64,000 nt of DNA from Bacteroidota bacterium. GTDB taxonomy: Bacteria; Bacteroidota; Bacteroidia; Chitinophagales; Saprospiraceae. The stretch spans positions 62,001-126,000 of the forward strand of contig JAKQHM010000052.1 in assembly GCA_029572935.1 (NCBI GenBank), read 5' to 3'. A program made the translations under genes and the position numbers. Of the stretch, positions 1-7,500 are shown piece by piece (positions within the stretch are counted from its first letter, which is position 1; the number at the start of each line of letters is the position of its first letter). The notes under the pieces are model-generated. The model worked only from the letters and a program-made list of their open reading frames with translations. It was not told where the DNA came from and did no database searches.

Positions 1-178
1 TTTGAAAATGCTGGAAGGACGATTTGCTTGCTCATTTATTTTTCCTCAAAATAGAATGAATCTTGATCCCGGCAACCCTGATACCATTAGATTTTTCAAT
101 GGATATTTTAAGGGTAAGTATTTGGAGAGATAGGAAATGTAGTTTTTTAGAAATGAACCTGTTGATGGAGTGATTAAA

Positions 179-221
179 GGCACAAGTCTTCCCGCCCAGG
201 CGGGACAGGAATACTTGAGAC
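179..221 (+). repeat. Family A imperfect-palindromic repeat, copy A1
   Basis: ggcacaagtcttcccgcccaggcgggacaggaatacttgagac; matches the family A consensus GGCACAAGTCGTCCCGCCAAGGCGGGACAGGAAGACTTGCGCC. Confidence 0.85.
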
Positions 222-316
222 GATATAGGAGCTGGAATATTAAGAGCAAGCTATTGATCGAAGTTAAAAAAATGTTAAAATTTAACTAAATATTAAAAAA
301 ATATTTAGGAATAATT

Positions 317-324
317 TATTTTTG
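317..324 (+). promoter_or_regulatory. Candidate Bacteroidota -7 box (TATTTTTG) upstream of the lipoprotein gene
   Basis: Matches TAnnTTTG; followed by AAC as in the 4433-4440 box; no clear -33 TTTG at the expected spacing. Confidence 0.35.
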
Positions 325-1683
325 AACAAAATTATATTTTATGTTACCACCAACCACCAACCACCAACCACCAACCACCAACCACCAACCAGTAGGTATT
401 TAATTAGGGTTAGGAATCTAATATGGGTAACAGTGTGTTTATTTTTAATTCAAGCCTGTACACATTGGGAGCAAGTCGAAACAGCATCATCAGGAAATTC
501 GATTGATTTAAAACCTCGGACAAGTTGTGAGCCTGATTATAGTGATGGTCGTTTAAATTTTACAGACTCAGCTGAATATATTTGTTTCTTAGATTATTTA
601 TATGATTTGACTTATGGAGATTCTACCCTTATCTCAGTAGATTCTATTTTAAACGAGATTGAATCCGATCTGGGTCATGTGTCCTTAAGGAGTCAGGCCT
701 TTGATCAGGATGGTGATTATGATCCTGATTTGTCACAAGATATTTTTTTAGGCGATGATATATTAAGATCTGTACTAAATGAATATTATGAAGTGAGAGT
801 GGGTACAAACATTGTGGTGCATCAATGCCCAACTGCATTGTATATCATAGATGGCAACTCATCGTCTGCCTCTTCATCAGTCACAAAGCTAAGAAATTCA
901 ATAAAAGGAGAATTACTCCCATTGTCTGACTTGGATACCAATATGACGGTTATTCATTTTGGAGATGATCAAACTGATTTAGGGCCCAGGAGTCCTTTGT
1001 GCGATTATAAGATTTTTATAGATCAAGACAGATGTCTGGATCCGCTCTCCGTTACCATTACTGTTGAATATAGAGGACAATTGACCACGGATGAATGTAG
1101 AGGTACAGTCAATTTGGGCGATGGTACCACTATCAATCTCTCCCCTCCGGCAAAAGCTTTTTTAATATCGCACACCTATACTTCTTATGCTGTTTTAACT
1201 GTTGCATTTGATTTTAAAGGTGAAATTTTAGGAGTCCCTGATCAATGTAATTATGCCACTTCCCGAAGTGTTGATACCCGGTCAAGGACTTGTGAACAAA
1301 AATTGATGACAGTTGAGGTATCAAAAGTTTCGACAGATGGCCAGTATAGACTCATCCAAAGGGTCAGCAGTGACTTTGATGGGTGGGGATATTATGTGGC
1401 CAACAAGACCATCGCGCAAAAGTTGATTTCCAGTAAATTCAAATCATACAAGGTGGATCGCATTGATTCTGATATAGAGGCTACTTTTAGGAATGTAAAT
1501 TGTATTTATCAGGACGATGAGGCTGATTTTGATTTTTGCAGAAATTGTAAGGATGAATTGGCTCGGAGGAGAGAAAGTTGGAGTAGTAGTTACCATGCCA
1601 ATGGCGATGTATTAGGAAGGGCAAAAATCAGAGAAGGTTCGTTGCAACTAAGTCAAACCCAAAGTCTGCCCCACTGTCAGTAA
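322..1683 (+). CDS. Cys-rich secreted lipoprotein of unknown function; 5' end contains a heptanucleotide repeat
   Basis: 453-aa ORF with lipobox-like LFLIQAC; frame opens only from TTG (322) in this assembly; the ATG at 341 is out of frame because of the heptamer tract. Confidence 0.6.
   Translation: MNKIIFYVTTNHQPPTTNHQPPTSRYLIRVRNLIWVTVCLFLIQACTHWEQVETASSGNSIDLKPRTSCEPDYSDGRLNFTDSAEYICFLDYLYDLTYGDSTLISVDSILNEIESDLGHVSLRSQAFDQDGDYDPDLSQDIFLGDDILRSVLNEYYEVRVGTNIVVHQCPTALYIIDGNSSSASSSVTKLRNSIKGELLPLSDLDTNMTVIHFGDDQTDLGPRSPLCDYKIFIDQDRCLDPLSVTITVEYRGQLTTDECRGTVNLGDGTTINLSPPAKAFLISHTYTSYAVLTVAFDFKGEILGVPDQCNYATSRSVDTRSRTCEQKLMTVEVSKVSTDGQYRLIQRVSSDFDGWGYYVANKTIAQKLISSKFKSYKVDRIDSDIEATFRNVNCIYQDDEADFDFCRNCKDELARRRESWSSSYHANGDVLGRAKIREGSLQLSQTQSLPHCQ
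344..388 (+). repeat. Heptanucleotide tandem repeat (ACCACCA)x6 + ACC
   Basis: Direct reading: accaccaaccaccaaccaccaaccaccaaccaccaaccaccaacc. Confidence 0.9.
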
Positions 1684-1713: not shown

Positions 1714-2577
1714 ATGGAGGGAATTGTAAGGAATTTAGTCATTATATTAATATCGGGTAGCCTAACCCCAGCTCTAATCTGCCAGGAATCCAACTGGAAA
1801 ATTGATCCGAAAGTGAACTTGTTTTATGGATACACCGGAAACAATGTAACGTACGAAGTAAAGAAGTTTAATTCCGTCAAATTTACATACCGGGCCAACC
1901 AGTGGCGAGGACCTGGCATAGATTCATCAAAATTTATCAAACGAGAAGAATATAATGGGATTGTCCAAACAAGAGATTACTTCACCTGGGAGCCGGAGAT
2001 CAGTCTGCGGCGCCAGTTTTGGAATAAAAGGATGGACGTAGGACTCAAGTTTTTCTACCGGATGAAAAAGGTGGATATCCAATATTACTTTCAGTATCCA
2101 TTTGATTATAAAAATCCGGATTTTAGTACATTTGAAAATAGCACTTCTGCAAATGTACATTATTTTGGTTTTGGACTCCAGTTTGGGTATCATTTTAAAA
2201 GGCCGGATATCTGGATCCGTGCCGGTATGGAATACGAAGCCAATAATAATAGTAATAACTCAAGTGGATACATTAGCACTTTGCTCAGTTCAGAAGGATT
2301 TGAATTTAAAAAGGTATTGGATAGAAGCGGCTACAAGTTTGGAATTGATTTAGGCAATGCATTTCGTAATTATAATTTTGAGATCAGCAAGTTTTTTGGT
2401 CCCAGGCTCTATGGAGGGCTGAGCGTTAGGTTTAACGCACCTGGTGATGAAGATATCAGTATTTCTGAACTATTTTCATTATTTGACACGAATAAACAGG
2501 AATTGTTACAAAAGGGATCTATTGTGATTAAAGACATATTGTTTGGTTTGCATTTTGGATATTTATTGGATTTATAG
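1714..2577 (+). CDS. Secreted/outer-membrane beta-barrel-like protein, paralog 1
   Basis: Signal peptide, aromatic/alternating strand pattern; shares FYGYTGNNVTYEVKKFNS..YNGIVQTRDY with the next ORF. Confidence 0.65.
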   Translation: MEGIVRNLVIILISGSLTPALICQESNWKIDPKVNLFYGYTGNNVTYEVKKFNSVKFTYRANQWRGPGIDSSKFIKREEYNGIVQTRDYFTWEPEISLRRQFWNKRMDVGLKFFYRMKKVDIQYYFQYPFDYKNPDFSTFENSTSANVHYFGFGLQFGYHFKRPDIWIRAGMEYEANNNSNNSSGYISTLLSSEGFEFKKVLDRSGYKFGIDLGNAFRNYNFEISKFFGPRLYGGLSVRFNAPGDEDISISELFSLFDTNKQELLQKGSIVIKDILFGLHFGYLLDL

Positions 2578-2601: not shown

Positions 2602-3465
2602 TTGAGCATGATTGAATATCGATTTTCATTGATCAATGGAAAATTATTTTCATTTTGTTTGTGGGTGATTCTTCACACAAGTACTCTGGCTCAATGGAAG
2701 GGGTTTGACCTATCCATCCAAGGTGGTCTGCTGTATGGATATACAGGGGATAATGTGAATTATTCAGTGAAGAAATTTAACAGCTACAATGCGCGCTCTA
2801 ATCCTGATTACTGGAAGGGGGCTGAAAGCTTACCAGATGAATTGTATAAATTGAAATATTACGAGGGGATTACAGAAGTTCGGGATTATGTTTCGGCCCG
2901 GATGGATTTCCAGTTACGGCGGATTTTGTTTTGGGATCGCATGGATCTCGGGCTGAGGATGGGATATTTTTTCAAAAGAAGAGATTACGATTATTATATT
3001 CTTGATCCAATATTTTTAACCTGGCCGGGCAGTTTACTTCATTTTCCTACCACATCGGAATATTTGCATTACCTGAATCTTGGAGTTCAGCTGGGTTTCA
3101 GACTGCCTCGATACAAGTCTTGGCTGAGATTCAGTCTGGAGCGCAGTATCAACTTCAATCGGAATGTGGATTTTGTCATGGCCTATGACCTGTATGGGCG
3201 AATGGACTTCAGAGTGCGTCACATACGCAAGTCTGGATGGGACAGAAGTCTGCCTTTGACTGTAGAACTGACCCGGACTGTCAGTCAGAATTGGTCGGTA
3301 GGAGTAAATGCGAGATTTTTGATGAGGCGAACATCTGATGAAAGTGTAACTGAGGAGTTTGAACTGATCGACACATTTGATCAGGAGGTATTGCAGAGAG
3401 GATTATACAGGATGAAGGATATTTTCGTGGGGATCCACGCAAGCTATCGGATATGGGGTAATTAG
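2602..3465 (+). CDS. Secreted/outer-membrane beta-barrel-like protein, paralog 2
   Basis: LLYGYTGDNVNYSVKKFNS..YEGITEVRDY, co-linear with the upstream ORF; same length (287 aa); TTG start in track. Confidence 0.65.
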   Translation: MSMIEYRFSLINGKLFSFCLWVILHTSTLAQWKGFDLSIQGGLLYGYTGDNVNYSVKKFNSYNARSNPDYWKGAESLPDELYKLKYYEGITEVRDYVSARMDFQLRRILFWDRMDLGLRMGYFFKRRDYDYYILDPIFLTWPGSLLHFPTTSEYLHYLNLGVQLGFRLPRYKSWLRFSLERSINFNRNVDFVMAYDLYGRMDFRVRHIRKSGWDRSLPLTVELTRTVSQNWSVGVNARFLMRRTSDESVTEEFELIDTFDQEVLQRGLYRMKDIFVGIHASYRIWGN

Positions 3466-3620
3466 GGTCAGTGTATGAGCATACCGAGACTGAAATTTTA
3501 TGTCTGATTTATGAAATTTCGAAAAAATAAAGGAGTCAATGGATATATGAACCTCTACTGGAGAAGTAATTCTGGATAATCAATATTTGGAAATATCGGG
3601 CCGTGATGGGGAAGTAGGCA

Positions 3621-3675
3621 GGAGGAGCAATCGGTGCATGAAAACAGGATCGCAGTTGCAAACTGCGACCATCGA
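3621..3675 (+). repeat. Family B palindromic repeat, copy B1
   Basis: AGCAATCGGTGCATgAAAACAGGATCGCAGTTGCAAACTGCGACCATCG; stem TCGCAGTT-GCA-AACTGCGA. Confidence 0.8.
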
Positions 3676-3693
3676 ATAGACGTGCGGCGACAG

Positions 3694-3743
3694 GGATCGG
3701 TGCATCAAAACAGGATCGCAATTGCAAACTGCGACCATCGTGT
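3694..3743 (+). repeat. Family B palindromic repeat, copy B2
   Basis: ATCGGTGCATcAAAACAGGATCGCAaTTGCAAACTGCGACCATCGTGT. Confidence 0.8.
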
Positions 3744-3895
3744 TTTAATAGAGACCAGGAAAATTGTAGTATTGGATTACAGGTAATATGTGCTTGGAGA
3801 TCGGTATTCAAATTTTAGCTCAATTAAGATACTTGCGTCTACATCAATTATAGTATAGGTACAAGACATCCCACCAGGGCGGGACAGGAATACTT
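3744..3895 (+). pseudogene. Duplicated 3' end of the FISUMP/T9SS gene plus its downstream sequence
   Basis: Near-identical to 9277-9428; 3745-3786 still encodes LIETRKIVVLDYR*, the terminal residues of the CDS ending at 9319. Confidence 0.85.
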
Positions 3896-3900
3896 GCGCC
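3858..3900 (+). repeat. Family A repeat, copy A2
   Basis: ggtacaagacatcccaccagggcgggacaggaatacttgcgcc. Confidence 0.85.
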
Positions 3901-3916
3901 AACAGGGAAAAGGAAA

Positions 3917-3959
3917 GGCACAAGTCTTCCCGCCAAGGCGGGACAGGAAGACTTGCGGC
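3917..3959 (+). repeat. Family A repeat, copy A3
   Basis: ggcacaagtcttcccgccaaggcgggacaggaagacttgcggc. Confidence 0.9.
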
Positions 3960-3982
3960 AATAAAAGGAATGGAAAAGGAAA

Positions 3983-4025
3983 GGCACAAGTCGTTCCGCC
4001 AAGGCGGGACAGGAAGACTAGCGGC
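3983..4025 (+). repeat. Family A repeat, copy A4
   Basis: ggcacaagtcgttccgccaaggcgggacaggaagactagcggc; 66 bp after A3. Confidence 0.9.
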
Positions 4026-4048
4026 AATAAAAGGAATGGAAAAGGATA

Positions 4049-4091
4049 GGCACAAGTCGTCCCGCCAAGGCGGGACAGGAAGACTTGCGCC
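4049..4091 (+). repeat. Family A repeat, copy A5
   Basis: ggcacaagtcgtcccgccaaggcgggacaggaagacttgcgcc; 66 bp after A4; matches consensus. Confidence 0.9.
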
Positions 4092-4118
4092 AACAGGGGC
4101 CAACAGGGGGTAGGCAGA

Positions 4119-4174
4119 GGGAGCAATCGGTGCATTAAAACAGGATCGCAGTTGCAAACTGCGATCATCGTGTA
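4119..4174 (+). repeat. Family B palindromic repeat, copy B3
   Basis: GGGAGCAATCGGTGCATtAAAACAGGATCGCAGTTGCAAACTGCGAtCATCGTGT. Confidence 0.8.
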
Positions 4175-4230
4175 GGAATGGAAAAGGAAAGCAGGAAGTA
4201 CTTGAGACAATGGATGATGGAATGATAAAA

Positions 4231-4273
4231 GGCACAAGTCGTCCCGCCCAGGCGGGACAGGAAGACTGGCGCC
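4231..4273 (+). repeat. Family A repeat, copy A6
   Basis: ggcacaagtcgtcccgcccaggcgggacaggaagactggcgcc; preceded by a truncated A right end near 4190-4208. Confidence 0.9.
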
Positions 4274-4522: not shown

Positions 4523-7500
4523 ATGAATTTGAAAATTCCATTGCTTCTATGCTCGATCAGCTTTTGTTCGTGGCATCATATCAGCTCACAGAGCCAGACG
4601 AAAGACAGAATGTCGGAAATCCCGGGTTCAACGGCTGGCAGATTCTACGAAGGGAAGGATAGAGTATTGTACAACTACACCAGCGATTGTACAAAGTCAT
4701 GGGTATACAAATCCACTGACGAAGGTGAATCCTGGGATCCTATTGTGAATATTTCATTTCCCAAGGAATCCGAGTTTAACTTGAGCTCGGATGGGACACT
4801 ATTCACCAAGAACCACAACGAGGCTTATTATTCAACGGACAATGGAGACAGCTGGACTCCCTTTCAGACCAGTAATTGGTCCTCGTATAAATATCTAAGT
4901 GGTTCCTCGGTGGATAATATTTTTGTCCTGGTTGGTTCAGCAGTCTACAGAAGTACCTCGCAGGGAGCCAATTGGACCAAAGTCATCAACAATGTGAATG
5001 GCACTAAAATGATTTTTTATCAGGATCCTTCCACTCAATTTTTATATATCTGTTCTGAAAATGAAATTTTTCAATCGAAGAATTTGGGAATGAACTGGAA
5101 CAGTTTGTTCAAGGATCGTTTTTCCGGAGTGGAAATGCCAAGGATGATCAGTGGTGCCAACAACCGGATCTATTTGGCAGGTCATGATTACATATGGGTG
5201 CTTTCCAATCAGGGGACCCTGCGTACCAAAACCAATCTGGTAAAAAGCAGTCAAAGAATGGTCCATCTTTGTCAGACAGATTCTGGACGATTGATAGCAT
5301 TTGAATTTTCGTCCAATTATTATTCAGACAATGAGGGAGGAAGCTGGAAAGAATATAATAATTCCAGTGGATTGGTCCTGAATCAACTGTTTCATTCGTC
5401 GTTTGGGGTTTTATTTGGGACAGCTGATCACAATTCAGCCATTTACAGATCAGAAGATAGAGGACAAAGCTGGCAAATATCGACCAAGGGGATACAGGGG
5501 TCTATGGTTATGGATATTTTGCATTTGACCAAAGACCGTTATTTTGTAATGAATGAAAATGGGTATTATCTCACTGAGGATGGAGGGAGGAATTACATAC
5601 TGATTCACCAGTTGAAGAGCAGATATTATTTAAATGCTTATTCCAAGTATAAGCTGATGTGTGTTCTTGGGGATCACTTCTTTTATGCTGATGGCAATGA
5701 AATATACCGGTATCATATAGTGAATGGGCAAAAGAAATTGATTTATACTATAACACAAAGTGGATTCAACGGAATGGCATGCAATGCTTCCAATCAAATG
5801 TTGTTTTTTTCTACGCGTTCGAACTTATATCGCTCTTCGGATTTGGGAGACCGATGGTTTAAGCTGAGGACGCCTGTGACCGTAGAATCCATGGGGCAAC
5901 CCATCATCACGAACGAAGCTCTGGTGATCAATATCGGTCCAAGCATCTATCGATCGATGGATTATGGTAATCAATGGACCAGGACAGGAGATTTTCCCGA
6001 TTTTGTTGATGTACTTCATAGTCCATATCCATCCATGATTTATTTTGTTCAGAGGGATAGTTTAGGGTATACCGATCTCTTTCAATCTTTTGATGCAGGA
6101 TTGAGCTGGCTCAAATCCGATATATCAAACCCGCTTCCCAATAGAGAGGAATTTGCTGTGTGGATCAATAATCAAGGCGATCTTTTTCTGAAAGGTTTTG
6201 GGGGTGAAGTATACCGATCTTTTGATATGGGTCAGAGTTTCGCGTTATATCACGATATTGGAGAGAATGAAACCGGAATATTTGTGGGTGATGATCAAAG
6301 GCTCTATGTGAAAGGTAATTGCTTTTTTTACAGATTGGCGGAGCCTACCTCTGATCGGAAGATTGCAAAAGGAATTTTATTTAAGGACGATGACCAGAAT
6401 TGCAACCAAGAACCTACTGAGTCAGCTCAATCAGGAGTTCAGATACGCGTCAGCGACGCCAACTTTACACGATTCCTGTATTCCAATCCTGTGGGGGAAT
6501 TTTATTTTGAACCTCCTGCTGGTGATTTCGAATTGGAGGCAAGTAATATCAGTAAATATCAGAATTCTTGCATTCTCAAGTTAAATGGTGCCAGTCTGGA
6601 TTTCACCAAGACCATTGAGCTGGGCTTACAGGAATTGAAAAAATGTTCTGAGCCCGAGGTGGACTTAAGTATTCCATTGCTGAGGAGGTGTTTTGAATCC
6701 ACCATTTACCTGAGGTATGGAAACAAGGGAACAGACATAGCCAAAAAAGCAGAGGTTGAACTGATTCTGGATCCCTATCTTGTATTTGTCAGATCCAGTC
6801 ACTCCAATATCCAGGTAAATGGAGACACAGTACGTTTTATCCTTGGAGATTTACCCAGGGACTTTTATGATAGACTGGAAATAACCGTCAAAGTCTCCTG
6901 CACAGCCCAATTGGGTCAGAAGCACTGTATAGAAGCAAGAATCGGATCGGACGAAGGATGTATTTCGGAATCTTCAGCTATTATAAAGACTTCCGCGAGT
7001 TGTATGGGAGATTCGGTTTTGTTGACCATTTCCAATTTAAGTTCTGTCGCGACGAGCAGTCTGAGATCCTGGAAACTGCTGGAGTTGGATCAAAACTCCA
7101 TTCAGACCATCGCATCCGGATTTTTTAAACTGAAGGGTTTTGAAAACAAGAGTTTTTCCATTCTGGCCTCCGAACGGGAACAGTTATTTTCTGCCGAACA
7201 GGAGGAGTCCTATCCTTATAACAAAGTCAGTCAGACCCCTGTCAGCAATTGTTTGAACCATCCGGGATTCAGGAATTCCATCGATGAGGATGAACCGTTT
7301 TATGATCTGGAATGCCGGACCAATGTAGGCAGTTATGATCCAAATGACATCACAGGACTGCCTCATGGTTTGGGACCGGACAAGAGGATTGAAGATCAGC
7401 AGGAGTTGGAATACACCATCAGGTTTCAGAATACCGGAACCGATACGGCATTCCATGTAGCCATCGTCAATGACCTGCGGACTACCAATCTGGATCCGGG

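Follow-up and report, generated by a model that had tools for sequence, protein, structure and literature searches.

Most known cases of phase variation through short repeats come from pathogens. In the opa genes of Neisseria, for example, switching is driven by (CTCTT)n within the leader-peptide coding sequence (PMC3745409). Haemophilus influenzae possesses a set of SSR loci, which include the tetranucleotide lic genes and rarer candidate tracts with 5-, 7- or 8-nt units (PMC2651432). Tandem arrays of the heptamer TAACTGA have been described from the Beggiatoaceae, Cyanobacteria and some Bacteroidetes, and were proposed to serve as regulator-binding sites (PMC4679880). Finally, in Bacteroides, phase variation proceeds through invertible promoters driven by recombinases (reviewed in 2025; PMC11868660). 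Literature searches found no paper that treats Saprospiraceae together with phase variation, and none that links tandem repeats and phase variation to type IX secretion, which is weak evidence given that subscription journals lie mostly outside the search.

The tract described here lies near the start of a 64,000-nt stretch of DNA (the window; G000:C6:62001-126000) from a Saprospiraceae MAG of 2.26 Mb in 61 contigs, estimated to be 66.8% complete (G000). It is probably a slipped-strand translational phase-variation switch, one of at least nine in this genome; judging from sequence, we give this reading a probability of about 0.78. The closest known mechanism would appear to be that of the opa genes, where a non-triplet tract likewise occupies the 5' coding region ahead of a mature surface protein, unit changes restore or break the frame, and several loci are scattered over the genome. 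In contrast to opa, a single gene family with a single pentamer, G000 carries units of 5, 7 and 8 nt in front of lipoproteins and T9SS cargo that mostly bear no relation to one another. Phase variation of surface functions would be a point in common with Bacteroides, a member of the same phylum, but there it depends on site-specific recombinase inversion rather than repeat slippage. The principle is thus known; what is new is the host group, the mixture of units and the unrelated cargo.

An earlier, sequence-only reading had proposed a heptanucleotide tract behind ATG341 as a candidate switch, possibly OFF in this assembly. The tract is real: (ACCACCA)6.57 spans 346-391 on the plus strand with a 100% match (TRF score 92), by far the strongest of the short-unit tandem repeats in the window. 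Its formula had been given correctly as to the six perfect ACCACCA units, and incorrectly as to the remainder, which is ACCA and not ACC. The tract is a perfect tandem whose unit length is not a multiple of three, it encodes TNHQPPT repeats, and it contains no stop in any frame, just as had been noted. The likely start codon, ATG341 (341-343, plus strand), sits 5 nt 5' of the tract. With the assembled six units it is out of frame and reads MLPPTTNHQPPTTNHQPVGI followed by a stop (20 aa), in agreement with the earlier frame reading. The accompanying claim that one unit more or two fewer would bring ATG341 into frame also holds, with seven units giving a frame of 449 aa and four units one of 442 aa, both including the lipobox LIQAC (ten units are equivalent). 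An alternative start, TTG322 (322-324, plus strand), is in frame at six units (also at three and nine), where it opens a continuous frame of 453 aa, and at five or eight units neither codon is in frame. Whichever of the two starts is used, the tract falls within the 5' coding region and its unit number sets the frame.

According to the proposed mechanism, replication slippage would add or remove 7 bp at a time, each step shifting the signal peptide relative to the frame set by ATG341. With seven (or four) units, translation from ATG341 would cross a hydrophilic spacer of TNHQPPT repeats, enter the signal peptide and yield the lipoprotein; with five or eight, translation would end after a short peptide; and with six, only TTG322 would be in frame, inside a likely promoter element, such that expression would probably be nil or weak. 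Six units, the number in the assembly, correspond to an OFF state only if translation starts at ATG341. We infer that the process is slippage, that unit number varies within the population, that ATG341 is used and that the product has a surface role, all as candidate parts of this mechanism.

A survey of perfect tracts with non-triplet units (5, 7 or 8 nt) and at least 3.5 copies covered 1.67 of the 2.26 Mb. In nine of the ten cases counted, an ATG precedes the tract and the signal region of a long open frame follows it; this placement is found at 1.4% of random positions and at 3.0% of noncoding ones. The corresponding P values are about 1e-16 against random and 2e-13 against noncoding positions, or 5e-9 against the noncoding null when the four loci with a shared leader are counted once, and they are descriptive, having been obtained with a placement criterion coded after the loci were known. 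A cleaner test is provided by the second batch of tracts. In the first 721 kb, the longest non-triplet tracts were located between ATG and signal peptide, and the hypothesis was recorded at that point; the following 948 kb yielded five further tracts at equal stringency, and four of the five fit. TRF rows with a triplet period never occupied such positions (0/36), as against 14 of 49 other rows (P = 2e-4).

Besides the window tract, the nine loci comprise CAGTCAA tracts at L043:4455 (minus strand) and L125:13132, TCAGCAA tracts at L107:9393 and L136:3631, ACCCAGT at L044:13102, AACCCTC at L091:36, the pentamer CTCAA at L037:2626 (minus strand) and the octamer ACAGAGCA at L071:19003 (minus strand). 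None of the seven units contains a stop in any of its three sense frames, and four of them have stops on the opposite strand. The TAACTGA arrays resemble these tracts as tandem heptamers that adjoin start codons and also occur in Bacteroidota, but they use one unit genome-wide, lie mostly just upstream of starts, and contain TAA and TGA, so that they are not stop-free. In a second species of the genus (G002), a (CAGTCAA)13.7 tract follows MEKIINFRSFN and continues in frame into a secreted-type protein of 542 aa.

Might the window tract instead be a neutral, dispersed heptamer repeat (STRR) that came to lie in the leader by chance and has no switching role? Arrays of at least three ACCACCA units occur in 5 of 299 genomes of the order, and those in other genera (G084, G023, G306, G316) are mostly intergenic, in both orientations, and often contain variant units as well (e.g., AATCACC or AACCACT). 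For this reason the ACCACCA unit alone is not diagnostic, and it was rejected as a marker of switches. Closer to home, 351 kb of G004 and G005 were examined, and G004, from the same genus, has heptamer arrays that are intergenic and contain stops. A neutral origin is nevertheless unlikely, for the placement of nine of ten perfect tracts between ATG and signal peptide argues against it, as does the finding that unrelated units share only their stop-free, non-triplet character; moreover, the window tract is the sole place in G000 with three or more ACCACCA units. As a separate observation, the reversed control pattern GACAACTGACAACTGACAACTGAC is frequent in G031 (82), G234 and G398, representing another type of heptamer array within the family.

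The start codons of the sister loci bear on a second alternative, in which the tract belongs to an untranslated leader or a promoter-start spacer, its length tunes expression in the manner of hmwA or the TAACTGA arrays, and translation begins after the tract or is independent of frame. Precedents exist in the published arrays that lie immediately 5' of start codons (PMC4679880) and in the hmw tracts (PMC2651432). At L091 an ATG does lie between tract and signal peptide, so that this tract could be untranslated leader, and other codons are available in that interval at L107 (GTG) and at L136, L044 and L037 (TTG). Against this stand the other eight of the nine loci, which have no post-tract ATG. 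In L043, L071 and L125 the pre-tract ATG is the only usual start, since no in-frame ATG, GTG or TTG precedes the signal region. At the window locus, GTG433, which falls within the hydrophobic core, is the only start candidate after the tract. Stop-free units with non-triplet periods would also be unexpected in an untranslated sequence, and we consider this explanation quite improbable.

The frames themselves are as expected of a random three-state switch: two of the nine loci, L044 and L037, are in frame from an ATG and the other seven are out of frame. The downstream frames are intact, at about 387-1253 codons (L037 and L125 being cut by the stretch end). The pre-tract ATGs mostly begin MKN or MKT, and the context of ATG341, MLPP, is less typical than these MKN starts. 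At L044 there are two ATGs, alternative starts in different frames, which together with TTG322 and ATG341 of the window recall the lic loci, where alternative starts also lie in different frames. This likeness to H. influenzae extends to a genome-wide set of tracts near start codons; the difference is that its tracts are mainly tetranucleotides and that its hmw heptamers affect transcription from within the promoter.

Upstream of the window tract, TATTTTTG at 317-324 (plus strand), 24 nt before ATG341, matches the Bacteroidota -7 promoter element TAnnTTTG, and the TTG at 322-324 overlaps this box as the sequence-only reading had pointed out. It is the sole plus-strand match in window positions 1-420 (chance expectation about 2% per 60 nt), and similar elements are found at -24 in L091 and at -35 in L071; no convincing -33 TTG element accompanies the promoter candidate at 317-324. 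This arrangement makes it very unlikely that TTG322 is the true start and that the gene is on at six units with the tract mainly a variable N-terminal extension. The continuous 453-aa frame in the assembly is consistent with such a start, yet the codon lies inside the TAnnTTTG element, so the transcript would begin downstream of it, and seven units would break the frame anyway, meaning that a 7-bp tract would still switch the gene. Finally, a decaying gene or an assembly error, with the frameshift due to a pseudogene mutation or to miscounting of the repeat, might be suspected in a MAG that is 66.8% complete, with long tracts open to miscounting (e.g., 102 bp at L107) and the L091 tract 36 bp from a contig end, but is highly improbable considering that ordinary reads can span the 46-bp window tract and that the seven out-of-frame genes keep long intact frames, which is unlikely if they are permanently silent.

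Further backing for a phase-variation switch comes from a noncoding leader of 400-577 bp that is common to L043, L107, L125 and L136, where it precedes unrelated secreted proteins (77-95% identity over 440-577 bp by blastn among the four loci). Its conserved end is ATGAAAAACTC(A/G)GTAATTTTT, and homology stops at the repeat tract, past which the sequences are unrelated. The leaders of L107 and L136 are 97.8% identical over their last 400 bp, ungapped, and the tracts number 14.57 vs. 5.57 units. These near-identical leaders, nine units apart, indicate that the tract changes much faster than its flank. The L043 leader is 96.8% identical to that of L136, yet it is followed by a different unit. 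The window locus has another leader, and a search of the eight other genomes of the genus did not recover the shared one; no Rfam match was obtained on the shared-leader loci. It is tempting to suggest, if only tentatively and against the odds, that the repeat tracts double as the joints of a modular switch cassette, with a common promoter-start-repeat module moved in front of unrelated secreted-protein genes and the array as the recombination boundary, the window locus having a different leader. Were this true, the genome could bring new genes under random on/off control.

Taken together, the comparison upholds the hedged proposal of a switch, possibly OFF here: the layout of ATG, non-triplet tract and signal peptide recurs at eight other loci of the genome and at one in the second species, with mixed frames and intact downstream genes; near-identical paralogous leaders differ by nine units; and three loci lack any other usual start before the signal region. 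If correct, the presence of such switches across the genome, on the secreted proteins of an uncultured Saprospiraceae bacterium, would point to a use of random surface variation by free-living members of communities as well, for example in relation to phage, predators or attachment.

The nine tract-linked proteins are mostly unrelated, with weak similarity only among L044, L037 and L107. T9SS-type C-terminal domains were matched in L071, L044, L107 and L136 (several just under the curated cut-off), parallel-beta-helix-like (NosD) domains in L107 and L125, and a PKD domain in L125. The window lipoprotein carries a signal peptide and lipobox by its sequence and has no family match. Its signal peptide (RYLIRVRNLIWVTVCLFLIQA-C) spans 394-459 on the plus strand, with the lipobox LIQAC at 445-459 and no ATG between tract and lipobox, and the remainder of the lipoprotein frame, an orphan, occupies 460-1683 on the same strand. 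No relatives were found among eight genomes of the same genus, and elsewhere in the order there was one weak match (25% identity, E 2e-4). A 287-aa orphan protein, probably encoded by the second gene of the operon, begins 30 bp past the lipoprotein stop (1714-2577, plus strand) and is followed by a paralogue with 31% identity (2608-3465, plus strand); relatives of this pair were not found in 60 genomes. Predicted structures for the lipoprotein and the 287-aa pair had mean pLDDT values of 32 and 37, too poor for use.

Several other features of the neighborhood may be mentioned. Directly upstream of the window lipoprotein lie two paralogous putative lipoproteins of 208 and 210 aa with an SCRD lipobox (L005:4822-5448 and 5501-6133). 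The octamer switch-like tract of L071 (L071:19003-19033; G000:C6:59003-59033) is located about 3.3 kb upstream of the window tract, and a DNA polymerase IV gene (L005:3274-4473), whose product is nearest to Saprospiraceae MAG proteins (up to 75% identity), stands between the two. A REP-like element with an inverted-repeat core, ACAAGTCNTCCCGCCNNGGCGGGAC, has 25 matches in G000 with up to 3 mismatches, including window positions 182-206 and 3861-4258, and is partly arranged as a tandem array with a 66-bp period (window 3906-4093). Finally, copies of the palindrome GGATCGCARTTGCAAACTGCGACC occupy the intergenic region after the third gene, at window 3620-3745.
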